Source: Haladaptatus sp. QDMS2 (lineage in GTDB: Archaea; Halobacteriota; Halobacteria; Halobacteriales; Halococcaceae). Taken from it: DNA of 64,000 nucleotides. The DNA is taken from the NCBI RefSeq assembly GCF_029338295.1, contig NZ_CP119792.1, positions 372,001 to 436,000 on the forward strand, given 5' to 3'. The number at the start of each line of letters is the position of its first letter. Positions within the stretch are counted from its first letter, which is position 1. Made by a program: the position numbers and the translations under genes. Shown here piece by piece: positions 47,197 through 53,786 of this stretch. Under the pieces are notes generated by a model. The model was not told the DNA's origin, did not search any database, and saw only the letters and a program-made list of their open reading frames with translations.

Positions 47197-47586
47197 TTAG
47201 AGGTCTTCGAGCAGCGCCTTGATATCTGCCGCAGACGCCCCATCGAGCGTCTCGATGCCATACTGGATAAGCAGCGGGAAGAAATGGCGGTTCTTCTCGA
47301 AGTCCGCATCGAACTCGTATTCGTACTGCGCCTTCGCTACTGTGTACACCCGTTCGAGTTCCTTCTTCTGACTCTCTGGAAGGTACATGTAGGTCCCAAC
47401 CTGTTCTTCCTTCACCGAACTCTGTTCGGGGACAGCCGTCTCGTCCGGTTTTGACGGTTCGGCCGGTTCGGACTGATTTGCGGCGTCGTCCGTTTCGCCC
47501 TCTTCGTCCGGTTCGACCGTCTGAACTCGCTCTTTGGCCGCTCTGCGCCGCGTCCTGAGTCGGTTCGCCCGGCTGTCATCGCTCAT
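47197..47586 (-). CDS. Small partner protein of ParA, candidate centromere-binding protein
   Basis: A 129-residue protein with a basic N-terminus (about 8-20), a long acidic low-complexity middle (about 25-60) and a compact C-terminal domain (YMYLPESQKKELERVYTVAKAQYEYEF). Its ATG overlaps the parA stop by 4 nt. This position and shape match the second genes of haloarchaeal parA operons, which may replace ParB. No helix-turn-helix is obvious by eye. Binding to the nearby iterons is inference. Confidence 0.7.
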   Translation of the reverse strand: MSDDSRANRLRTRRRAAKERVQTVEPDEEGETDDAANQSEPAEPSKPDETAVPEQSSVKEEQVGTYMYLPESQKKELERVYTVAKAQYEYEFDADFEKNRHFFPLLIQYGIETLDGASAADIKALLEDL

Positions 47587-48377
47587 GCTTTGACCTCCAC
47601 GAAGCCATACTCTTCGTCGAGACCCTCTGCGACGGCGAGGAATGCGTCGAACATGTCGCTCTCAGGGTTGTACTCGATGAGCGAGACACCGGATTCGAGC
47701 GCCTTCTGGACGTCTGCCCGCTCGCGGACCTCGTAAACCGGGATGTCCGGGAACGCGGCGTTGATCCACTCGACCATCTCGTTTGCCTGGTTCTTGCGCA
47801 CGTCGATGCGGTTGATGACGACGCCGCGTTCGACGATGTCGATTTCGTAGTCGAGTTCGAGCGCTTCGACGTGGTCGAACAGGAGTTCGAACGCCCGCTT
47901 GCTCGTGGACTCTGCGAGCGCCGGGATGAGGACGTTCTGCGTGGCGTAGAGGGCGTTGTCCATCAGGTTGCCGAGGTTCGGCGGGCAGTCGACGATGATG
48001 TAGTCGTAGTCCTCCTCTACGGCCTCGAGCAGGAGGTCTAACTGCTCGCCACTTCGTCGCGACAGGGTGAGCTCCGGCTCTGCGGCCGTCATGTCGATGT
48101 TCGACGGGATGACGTCCATCTCCGGGTGCTCGCGGATGATGTCGTTGATGACCTCGCGCTGTTCTGGGTTAGTGAGGCAGTCGAAGAGCGTCGGTGGTTC
48201 GTCCTCGTAAGCCTCCATCAGGCCGAGATTCTCGGTCGCGTTCCCCTGTGGGTCTAAGTCCACGAACAGGACGTCGTGGCCGCGGTGGTTCAGCGCGCCC
48301 GCGACGTTGATAGCCACGGTCGTCTTGCCCACACCGCCTTTTTGATTTGAGACGCAGAGTTTGGCCGGGTTGCTCAT
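47583..48377 (-). CDS. parA: ParA-family partition ATPase
   Basis: A 264-residue ParA/Soj-type ATPase with the deviant Walker A KGGVGKTT (13-20), the switch I region DLDPQGNAT, and Walker B IIVDCPP. It drives segregation of the replicon. It is a two-gene operon with the 129-residue protein overlapping its end. ATG 48377 is supported by a TATA box at 48401-48409 on the minus strand, with an 18-nt inverted repeat between the TATA box and start that should be the autoregulatory operator. Confidence 0.93.
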   Translation of the reverse strand: MSNPAKLCVSNQKGGVGKTTVAINVAGALNHRGHDVLFVDLDPQGNATENLGLMEAYEDEPPTLFDCLTNPEQREVINDIIREHPEMDVIPSNIDMTAAEPELTLSRRSGEQLDLLLEAVEEDYDYIIVDCPPNLGNLMDNALYATQNVLIPALAESTSKRAFELLFDHVEALELDYEIDIVERGVVINRIDVRKNQANEMVEWINAAFPDIPVYEVRERADVQKALESGVSLIEYNPESDMFDAFLAVAEGLDEEYGFVEVKA

Positions 48378-48869: not shown

Positions 48870-49218
48870 GGCGAACGAACCACCAGACGCACCTGAGGAG
48901 ATTCCGACCTACATCCGCGAGGGACTCGACCGCCAGGATCGCAACTCTCTCGAAAAGATTGTCGAGTACTGTGAGGCCCGAATCGGGTGGCTTGCAGCGA
49001 AGCCCGTCACCGAGACGACACAGTTGGACGCTGCGGACGATGAGTTAGTCGAGGTTTCTCAGGAGCAAAGCGGGACGGTCGTCATCAAGAAGGTCACCTG
49101 CGGAAAGTCTGGATGTCGCTGTACGCGCGGTCACCTTCACGGTCCGTACAAGTACGTCGTCACGAGACGCGGAGATTCGCTCCATTGGGACTACAGAGGG
49201 GCAGTTTCTTCGGAATAA
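48868..49218 (+). CDS. Small zinc-ribbon-like protein (DUF6788-like)
   Basis: A 116-residue protein (ATG 48868; ATGs at 48835, 48838 and 48856 are also in frame) with an N-terminal helical region and a C-terminal CGKSGCRCTRGHLHGPY motif followed by a beta hairpin (YKYVVTRRGDSLHWDYRG). This Cys/His arrangement resembles DUF6788-type proteins found near mobile or plasmid genes. Function is unknown. A dyad overlaps its start, so it may be autoregulated. It lies between parA and the origin. Confidence 0.7.
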   Translation: MANEPPDAPEEIPTYIREGLDRQDRNSLEKIVEYCEARIGWLAAKPVTETTQLDAADDELVEVSQEQSGTVVIKKVTCGKSGCRCTRGHLHGPYKYVVTRRGDSLHWDYRGAVSSE

Positions 49219-49236
49219 CAGCGGAAACAGTGGTGT
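49218..49236 (+). repeat. ORB-like repeat (a)
   Basis: ACAGCGGAAACAGTGGTGT, the leftmost of fifteen ORB-like repeats. It begins at the end of the zinc-ribbon-like gene, 1.5 kb away from the main cluster. Confidence 0.65.
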
Positions 49237-49381
49237 TGGCTGTGTGCAAGACAGCGCCTGGTCGTTTGATAAACCATATGTCGAGATATGAAGTGTGGAG
49301 CGGGTGTGGAAGAACAGTTTTTGGATTGGTCGCGATAAGTTGAGGTTCGGGCAGGGATAGAGGTTCAGTAGTGGTAAAGGT

Positions 49382-50551
49382 TCAGGTACCTGGTGGGTGT
49401 TCCTCCAGCGCGGACTCGTCTGGTTCACAGCCCCACCCTGGTTCGGTCGAAAGCTGTAGCTTCCCGTCGCGATACGTCGGTGCGGTGGTGAACAGGTCAA
49501 CGTCCCAGGCGAGGCGGTCGATATCGGTTTCCATGATTCTAAGATTGGGGATGGCGGCCGCGAGGTGCGCGTTCATGAACGTCGCGAGATGGCCGTAGTA
49601 GTTGTGGGGTGCGACGTGATACTGGTGAGCGTCGGCCATCGATGCAATTTTCGTGGATTGCTGAATCCCGTTCCAAAGTGCGTCGATGATGACCACGTCC
49701 ATCGACTGCTCCCGGAAGAACGACACGAACGACTCGTGAGGGACCAGTGCCTCACAGGAACTGATGGGATGTGGACTCGCCCGCCGGACGTCAGCGAGCG
49801 CCTTCGCATCCGGCATATCGATTTCGACCCAGAACAAGTCGAAGTCGGCGAGTTCCCGGAGCAGCCGGATGTAGCCCTCTGGTTTCATGTTGTAGTTGAG
49901 GTCGAGAAGGATGTCCACGTCGGGACCGGCACCCTCGTGGAGCGCTTCGAGGTAATCTCTCTGGGCTGCCAATTGGTCGGCCTCGATGGTCAGCGACGGA
50001 TGGAACGGCCCACCGAATCCGGGTCGCCACCCCTGGGGTTCGTCGCCACGGAAGTCGAAGATGTTCGTCTTCAGTGCCGTGAACTGACTGTCGCGCACCT
50101 CCTCACCGAGTGCTCGCACGTCCTCAAGGCTCTCTACCGGGTCATAATACTCTGGATAGTTGATGCGGTACGTTCCACAGTGCGACCAATAAACCGGAAT
50201 TTCGTCGCGAACCGCCCCACCCAGCAGGTCTACACAGGGGACACCGAGTTCTTTCGCCTTCGCGTCTAAGAGCGCGTTCTCAATCGCGCCAAGCGCCATC
50301 GCCCCGACGCCGGTATAGGATTGTCGCACTCGAGGGATGAGCTTCGCTCGGATGCGCTCGATTGCCATCACCGATTTGCCGACGACCACGTCGGCCATGT
50401 CCTCGATTATCGTGGTGATACCCGTGGCACCCAGATTCTCGTCGTATTCACTCCACCCCACCACCCCCTCTGTGGTGGTTACCCGAACGAAGTGATAGTT
50501 GCGCCAGCCGGCGTTGCAATGTCTCGTTTCTACGGACTGGATCGTGCTCAT
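49382..50551 (-). CDS. Enolase-superfamily (mandelate racemase/muconate-lactonizing type) sugar-acid dehydratase-like protein
   Basis: A 389-residue enolase-superfamily enzyme. The N-terminal capping domain is followed by the barrel with K in FTALKTNIF, metal ligands in ILLDLNYN, WVEIDMP and SSCEALVP, and a late His in VAPHNYYGH. This fits D-galactonate- or related sugar-acid-dehydratase groups rather than enolase. I chose ATG 50551 (in-frame TTG at 50560). It is a metabolic gene embedded between parA and the origin core, probably part of the same sugar-acid pathway as the genes left of parA. Confidence 0.88.
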   Translation of the reverse strand: MSTIQSVETRHCNAGWRNYHFVRVTTTEGVVGWSEYDENLGATGITTIIEDMADVVVGKSVMAIERIRAKLIPRVRQSYTGVGAMALGAIENALLDAKAKELGVPCVDLLGGAVRDEIPVYWSHCGTYRINYPEYYDPVESLEDVRALGEEVRDSQFTALKTNIFDFRGDEPQGWRPGFGGPFHPSLTIEADQLAAQRDYLEALHEGAGPDVDILLDLNYNMKPEGYIRLLRELADFDLFWVEIDMPDAKALADVRRASPHPISSCEALVPHESFVSFFREQSMDVVIIDALWNGIQQSTKIASMADAHQYHVAPHNYYGHLATFMNAHLAAAIPNLRIMETDIDRLAWDVDLFTTAPTYRDGKLQLSTEPGWGCEPDESALEEHPPGT

Positions 50552-50719
50552 TGTACACAATTAACATGGATGAGGTCGTGGCCCATTATTGTATGCACAT
50601 TCCACCCTCCTTGCTGGTAGTGAAGGTCCCCGCAAACAGACGGAGTTCCGGGCGACAGGAGTTGTACGGTGACAGCGTACGAGAACAGAGAGTGATGGGA
50701 TGGAAAACCAGAATACGAA

Positions 50720-50738
50720 ACAACGGAAACACCGGTGT
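50720..50738 (+). repeat. ORB-like repeat (b)
   Basis: ACAACGGAAACACCGGTGT; plus orientation, second half degenerate. Confidence 0.6.
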
Positions 50739-50752
50739 CTGACGCACGAAAG

Positions 50753-50771
50753 ACAACGGAAACAGTGGTGT
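50753..50771 (+). repeat. ORB-like repeat (c)
   Basis: ACAACGGAAACAGTGGTGT; plus orientation, 33 nt after repeat b. Confidence 0.65.
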
Positions 50772-50854
50772 GGAGTTTACCGAACAAATCAAGAGACTAT
50801 ACTGAAAGATGATGTAGAAATCGGGGGCAGGAATGATGCAAATTTGACCCACTC

Positions 50855-50873
50855 ACACCACCATTTCCGCTGT
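50855..50873 (-). repeat. ORB-like repeat (d)
   Basis: Minus orientation, ACAGCGGAAATGGTGGTGT on that strand. Confidence 0.65.
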
Positions 50874-50916
50874 TTCTGTCGAGACTGAGGAACGGACTCG
50901 GGATTGTGGTGGTGGG

Positions 50917-50945
50917 AGACCCTCCCACCCCACTATTTCCGCTGT
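50917..50945 (-). repeat. Left arm of 29-bp inverted ORB pair (e)
   Basis: On the minus strand the first 19 nt read ACAGCGGAAATAGTGGGGT, followed by a G-rich extension. All 29 nt are identical to the plus strand at 51232-51260. The G-rich tail is typical of origin recognition boxes. Confidence 0.8.
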
Positions 50946-51053
50946 CTTTTTGTGAGAGAGTGGGTGGGAAGAGGAAGGGGACTGAAGACGGAAGATCGAG
51001 AGGTGAAACGAGACGGCACGGAAAAGAAATCCCCAACAGCTGATCGAACATCA

Positions 51054-51087
51054 CTAGCCAACTAGACGAACCCTAGCTAGTGTCTAG
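51054..51087. other. Cluster of five CTAG tetramers
   Basis: CTAG occurs at 51054, 51062, 51073, 51077 and 51084. CTAG is usually rare in haloarchaeal genomes. The cluster is immediately left of the AT palindrome in the origin core. Confidence 0.6.
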
Positions 51088-51104
51088 CTTAACTTACTAA
51101 ACAC

Positions 51105-51133
51105 ACAACTAATTTATTAATTAAATAAGTTGT
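51105..51133. other. AT-rich palindrome, candidate DNA-unwinding element
   Basis: A 29-nt near-palindrome with ACAACT/AGTTGT ends and an almost pure A/T centre (12 of 14 positions pair). It is between the two inverted 29-bp ORBs, where duplex unwinding would be expected. Confidence 0.65.
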
Positions 51134-51231
51134 TAGTTCCCTACCACAGTTGTGGTTGGATGTTTTGTGTTATAAAACTATCGCTCTTAGAAAGGTCCCC
51201 GCTCACAACCCCCTCTCCCTTCTCCAAGATA

Positions 51232-51260
51232 ACAGCGGAAATAGTGGGGTGGGAGGGTCT
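51232..51260 (+). repeat. Right arm of 29-bp inverted ORB pair (f)
   Basis: Starts ACAGCGGAAATAGTGGGGT and continues into a G-rich tail; perfect inverted copy of 50917-50945, with 286 nt between the arms. Confidence 0.8.
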
Positions 51261-51274
51261 TTATATTAAAACAA

Positions 51275-51293
51275 ACATCGGAAACACCACTCC
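51275..51293 (+). repeat. Degenerate ORB-like repeat (g)
   Basis: ACATCGGAAACACCACTCC keeps only the CGGAAAC core. Confidence 0.35.
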
Positions 51294-51325
51294 CACAACA
51301 CCTTATAAAAAACCAATCAAACGAA

Positions 51326-51344
51326 ACAGCGGAAACGGCGGTGT
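51326..51344 (+). repeat. ORB-like repeat (h)
   Basis: ACAGCGGAAACGGCGGTGT; plus orientation. Confidence 0.65.
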
Positions 51345-51510
51345 ACACGTTCCCTCCTCCCGTCTAACTCGCTTTGTCCGGTGCTAATTCCTTCCTTGTT
51401 TCATTTTTCACGCTACTTCAGTTGTTTCTCTGGTTCGACTCCATATTCCAGGTTACCTAGCCACCGTTCTCGACCACGACAGCCCATCGTACTCCGCTCC
51501 GAACAATCCG

Positions 51511-51529
51511 ACACCACCATTTCCGTTGT
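51511..51529 (-). repeat. ORB-like repeat (i)
   Basis: Minus orientation, ACAACGGAAATGGTGGTGT on that strand. Confidence 0.65.
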
Positions 51530-51792
51530 TTTCGAGCGTTGGATTACCATGGCAATACCGGTCAAATCCATCCAACTTCACCCCAACCTCTCCAACCTCA
51601 ACCAAACTTCACCAATTCCAATTGAACCTCGCTTATCCTCGATTCCACACTCACACATCTCCCATTCGCTATCCTGCACGCTCCCTCATACCGTATCCTG
51701 AACCCTCTCTCACTCGTGATTGTCCTGTATTTCGATGTTCACACACCGAGCAACTGTCCTGGAGGTCTTTCAGCTTCCAGTTGTCGACCGAG

Positions 51793-51842
51793 CGTCTTAC
51801 CAAACAGATGAGAATATTGACGTTCGAATGTTTGGTAAGACG
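51793..51842. repeat. Long dyad 2: 14-bp perfect arms, 22-nt spacer
   Basis: Arms CGTCTTACCAAACA (51793-51806) and TGTTTGGTAAGACG (51829-51842). The arm sequence and spacer length match dyad 1 at 48822-48869. Confidence 0.7.
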
Positions 51843-51950
51843 GGATTGTCGAACCATCAATTTTTGCGCTCCACTCCTCGAACAGCCTTCGTCGACCGAG
51901 CGGTTGATTCAATCAATTCGCGTGAAAATACAGGACGCTGACTCGATGAA

Positions 51951-51969
51951 ACAACGGAAATTGTGGTGT
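51951..51969 (+). repeat. ORB-like repeat (j)
   Basis: ACAACGGAAATTGTGGTGT; plus orientation. Confidence 0.65.
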
Positions 51970-52065
51970 TGCTTCACAGAGTTACGCTCGAAAAATCCGC
52001 CTCGAACCGTCCGACTCGAACCATCCGGCTGGTCTGAGTACACATTCGCGTCCTGTGGAAATCAA

Positions 52066-52084
52066 ACAGCGGAAACGGTGGGGA
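52066..52084 (+). repeat. ORB-like repeat (k)
   Basis: ACAGCGGAAACGGTGGGGA, with a G-rich end as in the inverted pair; followed at 52089 by a TTTATAAATAA stretch. Confidence 0.65.
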
Positions 52085-52106
52085 GTGAGTTTATAAATAA
52101 ACAATG

Positions 52107-52125
52107 ACTTCGGAAACGCTGGTCC
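52107..52125 (+). repeat. Degenerate ORB-like repeat (l)
   Basis: ACTTCGGAAACGCTGGTCC, just upstream of the orc1 TATA box. Confidence 0.4.
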
Positions 52126-52130
52126 TCCTC

Positions 52131-52140
52131 CATATATAAA
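52131..52140 (+). promoter_or_regulatory. TATA box for orc1/cdc6
   Basis: CATATATAAA lies about 42 nt before the ATG at 52178, placing the transcription start near 52160, inside ORB-like repeat m. Confidence 0.6.
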
Positions 52141-52148
52141 CGAATCCG

Positions 52149-52167
52149 ACAGCGGAAACAACGGACG
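52149..52167 (+). repeat. ORB-like repeat (m) over the orc1 transcription start
   Basis: ACAGCGGAAACAACGGACG. It is located between the orc1 TATA box and start codon, so binding of Orc1 could repress its own gene. Confidence 0.55.
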
Positions 52168-52177
52168 CCATAGTTTT

Positions 52178-53452
52178 ATGTACGCTGTTATCGAACAGTA
52201 TGGCAACGTGACATCCTTCAGCTTCGAGCGGGACGATTCCCTCTACAAAAACCGTGACGCGCTGCTTGAGGAGTACACACCCGAAGAGCTGGTCGGTCGT
52301 GACGAAGAACTCGAGGAATTCCACGCTGCGCTGCAACCGGTCATCAACGGCGAAGCACCGTCGAACATCTTCCTGTACGGGAAAAGTGGGGTCGGAAAGA
52401 CTGCGGCAACCCGATTTCTCCTCTCACAGCTCAGAAACGACGTCGAGCGATACGAGGACGTCACGCTCAACGTCATCGAGGTCAATTGCGACGGGCTCAA
52501 TTCGAGTTACCAGGTCGCCGTCCGACTCGTGAACACGCTTCGCGACCCGGCGAACCACATCAGCAACACTGGCTATCCGCAGGCGCAGGTGTACTCGTAC
52601 CTCTGGGACGAACTCGACAGCCTCGGTGGAACCATCTTGCTCGTCTTAGACGAGGTAGACCACATCAGAGACAACTCAATCTTATACCAGATTCCGCGCG
52701 CGCGAAGTAACGGGTACCTCACGAACTCGCGCATCGGCATCATCGGTATCAGCAACGACCTGTCGTTCCGTGATTCGCTCTCTGCGAAGGTCCGGTCGTC
52801 GCTCTGTGAGAAGGAAGTCTCTTTCCCGCCGTACGACGCGAACGAACTCCAGTCAGTGCTCCGTCAGCGCGAAAAAGTCGCCTTCCACCCGGACGTTCTC
52901 TCAGACGACGTCATTCCACTCTGTGCGGCCTACGGTGCACAGGACGCGGGTGACGCTCGCCAGGCCCTCGACCTCTTGCTCGAAGCCGGGGACCTCGCTC
53001 GAAAAGATGGAGCGGAGAAAATCACCGTCCAACACGTCAAAGACGCCCGCGAGAAATTAGAACGCGACCGTATCGTCGACGGCGTCTCGGAACTCACCCA
53101 GCACGCACGACTCATTCTCTATGCGCTTGCTTCGCTCGACGCAGAGGACGAAACCCCAGTTCGGTCGCGTCAGATACGCCCGCGCTACGAACAGCTTTGT
53201 GACCAAATTTCGACGGAACCGCTCACCAGCCGTCGGATGCGCGACCACCTCGCCGACCTCTCGATGCTCGGAATCGTCACCTCGATCGAGAAGAACGAGG
53301 GGATGTCGGGCGGGAAGTATCGTGAACACTCGCTGAAACAGGACCTGCAGGTGGTGCTCTCTGCGCTCACCGATACCATCGAATTCGTTGGTACCCACGA
53401 GAGTATCAAGCGGTACCATCAGCCAACGCTCGACGAAGCCGTTCGGAAGTAA
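52178..53452 (+). CDS. orc1: Orc1/Cdc6 replication initiator
   Basis: A 424-residue AAA+ origin-binding protein. The Walker A motif is GKSGVGKT (68-75), Walker B is LLVLDEVD (154-161), sensor 1 is GISND, and the C-terminal winged-helix domain (about 325-420) includes SRQIRPRYEQL and the GMSGGKYREHSL wing. It should bind the ORB-like repeats around it and start replication. An in-frame GTG at 52208 is an alternative start. Its promoter contains an ORB-like repeat, so autoregulation is likely. Confidence 0.95.
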   Translation: MYAVIEQYGNVTSFSFERDDSLYKNRDALLEEYTPEELVGRDEELEEFHAALQPVINGEAPSNIFLYGKSGVGKTAATRFLLSQLRNDVERYEDVTLNVIEVNCDGLNSSYQVAVRLVNTLRDPANHISNTGYPQAQVYSYLWDELDSLGGTILLVLDEVDHIRDNSILYQIPRARSNGYLTNSRIGIIGISNDLSFRDSLSAKVRSSLCEKEVSFPPYDANELQSVLRQREKVAFHPDVLSDDVIPLCAAYGAQDAGDARQALDLLLEAGDLARKDGAEKITVQHVKDAREKLERDRIVDGVSELTQHARLILYALASLDAEDETPVRSRQIRPRYEQLCDQISTEPLTSRRMRDHLADLSMLGIVTSIEKNEGMSGGKYREHSLKQDLQVVLSALTDTIEFVGTHESIKRYHQPTLDEAVRK

Positions 53453-53496
53453 CACGTTCTGAGACACCGTCGATAGCCGTTCCCACGTGCGAATCG

Positions 53497-53515
53497 ACAC
53501 CACTATTTCCGCTGT
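53497..53515 (-). repeat. ORB-like repeat (n)
   Basis: Minus orientation, ACAGCGGAAATAGTGGTGT on that strand; 45 nt after the orc1 stop. Confidence 0.65.
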
Positions 53516-53686
53516 TTTCCCGCCAGGAGAGCAGACAGTAACCCTCGGGGCTACAATCTGAGCGACCCTGTCACTCAGATTCAAACCTATCCAAAACGTC
53601 CAAACCAAATTCGCTATCTTCTGCTGGCGACGGGGTGAACGGTGCAACCCCATCCTCGAGAGCCGGTTCTGCAATCACGTGGCTGA

Positions 53687-53705
53687 ACACCACCATTTCC
53701 GCTGT
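53687..53705 (-). repeat. ORB-like repeat (o)
   Basis: Minus orientation, ACAGCGGAAATGGTGGTGT on that strand; identical to repeat d. Confidence 0.65.
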
Positions 53706-53786
53706 TTTCAGGGCGACGGCCCGTGCGACATCCTCGGCCCAACGAACGATGGTCGAACAAACAAACCAGCCATACTCTCCAAGCTT

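Follow-up and report, generated by a model that had tools for sequence, protein, structure and literature searches.

The closest described relative of the locus examined here is oriP of the Haloarcula hispanica plasmid pHH400, which replicates autonomously, cannot be deleted and, as judged by marker frequency, is the only site at which replication of the plasmid starts (PMC3528665, PMC3936714). H. hispanica oriC1 depends on its G-strings, and its activity is enhanced by a G-rich inverted repeat located immediately inside the ORBs (PMC3936714). The papers on the H. hispanica origins (PMC3528665, PMC3936714) make no mention of the tetramer CTAG. Clusters of CTAG upstream of orc1/cdc6 genes in haloarchaea were described by Blow et al. 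2016 (PMC4752239), who saw them at several origins of a single genome, found that they correlate with an orphan methyltransferase and proposed a role in replication. In H. volcanii, a raised CTAG density was seen at oriC2 only, and deletion of the methyltransferase genes caused no growth defect (PMC5867850). The role of this nearly universal haloarchaeal enzyme is an acknowledged open question (PMC6471742, PMC10609329), and a 2023 survey described its precise function as unresolved (PMC10609329).

Here we compare with these systems a locus of Haladaptatus sp. QDMS2. The window, by which we mean the whole stretch of DNA analysed, comprises 64,000 nucleotides (positions 372001-436000) of contig C2, a 598 kb megaplasmid in a genome of 3.88 Mb and three contigs. 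Judging from its sequence, the locus very likely (probability about 0.92) forms the core of the origin from which this megaplasmid is replicated in an Orc1/Cdc6-dependent manner. What is new here is the placement of CTAG, which lies in the middle of the core, between the ORBs and beside the candidate unwinding element, and does so in a proven plasmid origin as well. We found no earlier statement of this placement in the literature searched, which is not proof of absence.

Architecture of the putative origin core

The putative core is bounded by two 29-nt arms, at 50917-50945 (- strand) and 51232-51260 (+ strand), that are exact reverse complements of each other and allow no further extension. 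Each arm consists of an ORB with an extended G-string, and the left arm reads ACAGCGGAAATAGTGGGGTGGGAGGGTCT on the - strand. Between the arms lie 286 nt (50946-51231) with 56% AT, in a window of ~60% GC overall. The original prediction had described identical, inverted 29-bp arms enclosing 286 nt, and its coordinates proved exact on recheck. The general ORB accounts for ~20 nt of each arm; the G-rich extension GGGGTGGGAGGGTCT, present in both inner arms and common to this inner pair only, supplies the halophile-specific G-string at the ORB ends. In 239 mononucleotide-shuffled regions, no inverted pair at 18/20 identity with a comparable gap was found.

The inverted symmetry of the arms runs further inwards at lower identity, giving 66-nt arms that are 74% complementary. 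The sequence and this 66-nt-arm repeat together define an inner imperfect inverted repeat, with a G-rich left half at 50952-50980 and a C-rich right half at 51197-51225 (both given on the + strand), and the left half resembles the G-rich repeat that acts as an enhancer at H. hispanica oriC1 (PMC3936714). Near the middle of the core is an AT-rich palindrome (51105-51133), a candidate duplex-unwinding element. It had been predicted as a 29-nt palindrome and is indeed present, though imperfect, with 12/14 pairs; in strain DYSN1, read from the alignment, 13/14 positions pair. Among 1000 dinucleotide shuffles of the 286-nt core, 5 reached its score. Folded as a single strand, the core is not exceptional (z -1.35).

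Beside the palindrome, at 51054-51087, are five copies of CTAG, a normally rare methylation target; they would be substrates of the orphan m4C CTAG methyltransferase discussed below. As predicted, all five fall within 34 nt (starts at 51054, 51062, 51073, 51077 and 51084), and they make up 5 of the window's 19 CTAG. None of 1000 dinucleotide-preserving shuffles of the 286-nt core produced five CTAG in 34 nt.

The inner pair belongs to a larger ORB family. With a matrix built from ten copies, for which Markov controls peak at 13.6 bits, we found 12 ORB sites scoring 28-39 bits across 49217-53706 (~4.5 kb), the next best site in the window reaching 16 bits; one perfect inverted pair among these 12 flanks the AT-rich element. 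When all 3.88 Mb of the genome were searched with a consensus, those 12 ORBs matched exactly and no exact match was obtained elsewhere. To the left of the inner pair are ORBs at 50719-50743 (+, 29.8 bits) and 50752-50776 (+, 33.5 bits), and the pair itself is bracketed by an outer left ORB at 50850-50874 (-, 36.4 bits) and an outer right ORB at 51325-51349 (+, 28.6 bits). Further to the right are sites at 51506-51530 (-, 38.5 bits), 51950-51974 (+, 33.4 bits) and 52065-52089 (+, 32.2 bits), the last of which carries a GGGG tail and lies upstream of orc, and two more follow downstream of orc at 53492-53516 (-, 38.2 bits) and 53682-53706 (-, 30.1 bits). An outlying ORB is located at the end of a DUF6788 gene (49217-49241, +, 34.8 bits). 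A second inverted pair, with 19/20 identity and a 417-nt gap, spans 51511-51969.

The initiator gene, its neighbours and strand composition

Directly adjacent to the putative origin, ~0.9 kb from the core, is an orc1/cdc6 initiator gene at 52178-53452 on the + strand. Its 424-aa product matches TIGR02928 with 449 bits (cut-off 181) and contains a Cdc6 lid and a Cdc6_C C-terminal winged helix; the RefSeq start in Haladaptatus sp. YSMS36 corresponds to ~52208. The protein is identical to those of strains YSMS36 and DYSN1; in YSMS36, the 1.8 kb preceding orc has the same sequence as here. The RefSeq annotation of both strains has no gene between a mandelate-racemase-like gene and orc, and none between origin and orc. 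Between core and orc, at 51793-51842, lies a 14-bp inverted repeat (CGTCTTACCAAACA ... TGTTTGGTAAGACG) that is perfect, has a loop of 22 nt and is unaltered in DYSN1.

On the same replicon backbone, ~2.5 kb left of the core, a ParA-type partition ATPase is encoded at 47583-48377 (-). It overlaps by 4 nt a downstream 129-aa ORF (47197-48377 for the two together), which has no Pfam or NCBIfam match and is possibly a centromere-binding partner. Elsewhere on C2, Cdc6_C matches occur at 4.7, 110 and 574 kb. The opposite ends of the contig (C2:1-9000 and C2:570000-579000) both bear orc, and their CTAG and ORF spacings coincide at a constant offset, which suggests a long duplication or assembly redundancy.

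Skew over C2 was computed from sampled stretches. Over 436 kb of the 598 kb, with gaps interpolated, cumulative AT skew is maximal at 426 kb, with the origin at 423 kb, and its amplitude was reached by 0/2000 permutations, a procedure that ignores gene-orientation effects. Keto skew has its C2 minimum at 430 kb, and AT and keto skew both mark a shift in strand composition at the origin. GC skew over C2 is weaker; taken alone it peaks at 486 kb and is not decisive.

Orthologous plasmid origins

The Orc protein is 60.8% identical to Cdc6K, the initiator of pHH400. The pHH400 region upstream of orc contains an inverted pair, TCCCACCCCACTTTGTCCGC / TCCCACCCCACTATGTCCGC, with 19/20 identity and a 318-nt gap in which seven CTAG are found. 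The two origins share an orthologous initiator, an inverted pair of ORBs whose G-string is the same (TCCCACCCCACT...), an AT-rich core and CTAG inside it. They differ in the ORB core, which is TTGTCCGC / ATGTCCGC in pHH400 and ATTTCCGC here, and in the distance from pair to orc, 104-461 bp in pHH400 versus 0.92-1.26 kb here.

A G-tailed inverted pair lies upstream of orc in 10 of the 12 further orthologous plasmids that we examined. The same arrangement is seen in plasmids of H. marismortui (pNG700, 4 CTAG), Halomicrococcus gelatinilyticus (2 CTAG) and Haladaptatus caseinilyticus (3 CTAG). Five Halorussus plasmids (L215-L217, L219, L221) carry an orthologous G-tailed inverted pair around a core with 0-1 CTAG, and these origins offer natural counter-examples for testing what the CTAG cluster does. 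In Hfx. mediterranei the pair is present and encloses no CTAG, and in the Haladaptatus salinisoli plasmid no inverted pair was found upstream of orc.

Haloarchaeal chromosomal origins of the oriC1 (Orc1/Cdc6A) type likewise have an inverted G-tailed ORB pair and an AT-rich centre, many with CTAG clusters, but they use another ORB sequence family and another Orc. An inner G-rich inverted repeat like that of the megaplasmid is found both in H. hispanica oriC1 and in the chromosomal oriC1 of the Haladaptatus genome itself.

Origin, regulatory array or dormant locus

The adjacent orc1/cdc6 gene, an ORB family exclusive to this spot, the skew extremum and an architecture conserved with a proven orthologous origin in pHH400 together argue that the locus is an origin, and on these grounds the original prediction of an origin core with inverted G-tailed ORBs is supported. 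The ORB family could be read differently, as a regulatory or titration array for orc, with another inverted pair, closer to orc or located downstream of it, as the real core. An ORB-dense region does repress initiation at H. hispanica oriC2 (PMC3936714), and further ORBs are indeed found here at 51506-52089 and 53492-53706, besides the second pair at 51511-51969. However, the extended G-string, inner G-rich repeat, AT palindrome and CTAG cluster occur only at the 50917/51260 pair, and it is a G-string pair with an enclosed CTAG cluster that marks the pHH400 oriP core, which makes the array very improbable.

It is, by our estimate, very improbable that the origin is dead or dormant while another orc locus drives replication of C2. 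Dormant origins are reportedly known in haloarchaea, and the other Cdc6_C matches on C2 provide candidates. Yet this is where the skew extremum lies, and CTAG triplets are absent from the other C2 orc loci. In addition, orc has an intact frame, and two other strains carry an almost unaltered core. An active origin core at 50917-51260 remains the preferred reading; the placement of CTAG aside, it is an ordinary, well-preserved megaplasmid origin.

By analogy with the Orc/Cdc6 literature, Orc1 from the neighbouring gene would bind the ORBs, with its AAA+ domain contacting the G-strings. Two inward-facing Orc1 complexes at the perfect pair would then open the AT-rich centre and load MCM, while the outer and downstream ORBs would modulate or titrate Orc1.

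CTAG clusters and the methyltransferase of the Haladaptatus genome

Throughout the genome, at least three CTAG within ~50 nt occur at four places, three of which lie beside an orc gene, one per replicon. Such triplets are almost confined to orc loci, and at the megaplasmid origin CTAG is enriched in the non-coding DNA beside orc. The cluster in the megaplasmid core is inside the inverted pair; in contrast, the five CTAG at the chromosomal oriC1 lie just outside the best inverted pair of that origin, between its right ORB and a third ORB. The third contig, C3, has four CTAG that are enclosed by its ORB pairs and adjoin an AT tract. The C3 origin (L051:2665-3210) is downstream of its orc and has another ORB family (ACACCGNTTTTCCGTTGTAA), of which five copies stand to the left and two to the right. 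Chance as a source of the megaplasmid cluster is ruled out by the shuffles and the genome-wide search. The original prediction had called the cluster an unusual extra, which it is not: such clusters recur at haloarchaeal origins and had been published before (Blow et al. 2016, PMC4752239).

The genome contains one PF01555 methyltransferase gene, on the chromosome (L049:1435-2472), flanked on one side by a TFB-like gene and on the other by a probable aroD (3-dehydroquinate dehydratase) gene, both read from their translations. Aligned over 94% of its length, its product shares 50% identity with the methyltransferase of the Methanothermobacter plasmid pFZ1, which adjoins an MjaI-family nuclease and which we take to be M.MthZI. 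M.MthZI is a plasmid-encoded CTAG enzyme (PMC6471742). No MjaI-type nuclease is located beside the Haladaptatus gene and none was found in the genome, so the methyltransferase counts as a CTAG-type orphan, its activity on CTAG being inferred from homology. Orthologues at 56% identity or more are present in 20/29 genomes of the class, a Halorussus genome among them.

CTAG at orc loci across haloarchaeal genomes

We surveyed 120 orc loci in 23 genomes, comparing CTAG with seven other palindromes of equal composition. In genomes with the enzyme, CTAG climbs upstream of orc from ~0.5/kb to 1.6-2.0/kb, with no such change in the seven other palindromes; in genomes lacking it the rise is smaller, to 1.4/kb in one bin. 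Inverted pairs were then detected without reference to CTAG (at least 18/20 identity, gap 80-450). Since some of these pairs may not be origins, the densities refer to candidate cores: in 50 enzyme-positive pairs CTAG amounts to 5.96/kb inside versus 1.90/kb in the 300-nt flanks, and in 29 enzyme-negative pairs to 2.08/kb inside versus 1.24/kb in the flanks. Relative to a first-order model, the observed/expected ratio is 1.57 inside and 0.99 in the flanks, compared with 0.84 and 0.62 for the negatives. Taken genome by genome, core density has a median of 8.4/kb in the 14 positive and 1.4/kb in the 9 negative genomes (Mann-Whitney p = 0.005, a significance inflated by relatedness because the negatives come from three genera only). 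Within cores, 87% of CTAG fall in the central 60%. CTAG spacing showed no convincing helical phase (resultant 0.23, n=43).

A strict rule, by which presence of the methyltransferase would mean presence of a CTAG cluster, is rejected on account of the Halorussus orthologues with 0-1 CTAG and of clusters in some methyltransferase-negative genomes; the enzyme is neither sufficient for a cluster, as Halorussus demonstrates, nor strictly necessary. CTAG clusters near orc in enzyme-lacking genomes (L162, L191, L176) are in some cases on secondary replicons, and such replicons were possibly acquired recently from enzyme-positive hosts. Replacement of CTAG by GATC was not seen in enzyme-lacking genomes, in whose cores GATC is not enriched. 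The view of the CTAG excess as a mere by-product of AT-rich intergenic DNA is only partly true: some of the excess is accounted for by composition, yet the other palindromes with identical composition do not behave in this way.

Discussion

The cluster may plausibly act through methylation. The chromosome-encoded orphan methyltransferase would m4C-methylate the CTAG cluster at the melting centre, and, more speculatively, hemimethylation after replication would change melting or protein binding and so limit re-initiation. In favour of a CTAG step are the triplets at orc on each replicon, a core enrichment that tracks the methyltransferase and the single M.MthZI-like orphan enzyme. Against the methylation step are the Halorussus origins with 0-1 CTAG, although a Halorussus genome has the enzyme, the origin clusters of some enzyme-lacking genomes and the lack of a growth defect in the H. 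volcanii methyltransferase deletion (PMC5867850). We consider this step tentative and rather unlikely.

It is quite possible, on the other hand, that the cluster, as distinct from the origin, is unrelated to methylation and reflects either relaxed CTAG avoidance in AT-rich non-coding DNA or a use of CTAG as kinkable or meltable steps. Modelling composition does remove part of the excess over coding DNA, leaving the ratios of 1.57 in cores and 0.99 in flanks, and the mismatches between enzyme and cluster in both directions fit such an explanation. It does not account for the lack of a comparable core enrichment in the seven other same-composition palindromes, for the dependence of per-genome core density on methyltransferase status, or for five CTAG in 34 nt, which shuffles never produced.

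In its broadest form, the methylation proposal would make CTAG at the melting centre an archaeal epigenetic initiation switch acting on every replicon, with hemimethylation altering unwinding or Orc/MCM loading; we regard this as doubtful. We know of no SeqA counterpart or other hemimethylation reader for archaeal CTAG, and of no demonstrated replication phenotype.

The clusters of Blow et al. agree with those described here in lying upstream of orc, in recurring at several origins of one genome and in correlating with an orphan methyltransferase. Their resolution was 500 bp around the gene, whereas CTAG is here resolved to the middle of an ORB-flanked core and tied to a proven plasmid origin. 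This finer placement, mid-core and sevenfold in the proven pHH400 oriP, makes the open question of the enzyme's role amenable to a small mutational test with defined targets, in a system that is tractable. As in E. coli oriC, with its GATC sites and Dam/SeqA, a cluster of targets of an orphan methyltransferase is found inside the origin; unlike the m6A GATC of E. coli, the predicted modification here is m4C CTAG, and the machinery is archaeal Orc/MCM. If the switch exists, it would be an evolutionarily independent counterpart of GATC/SeqA control.
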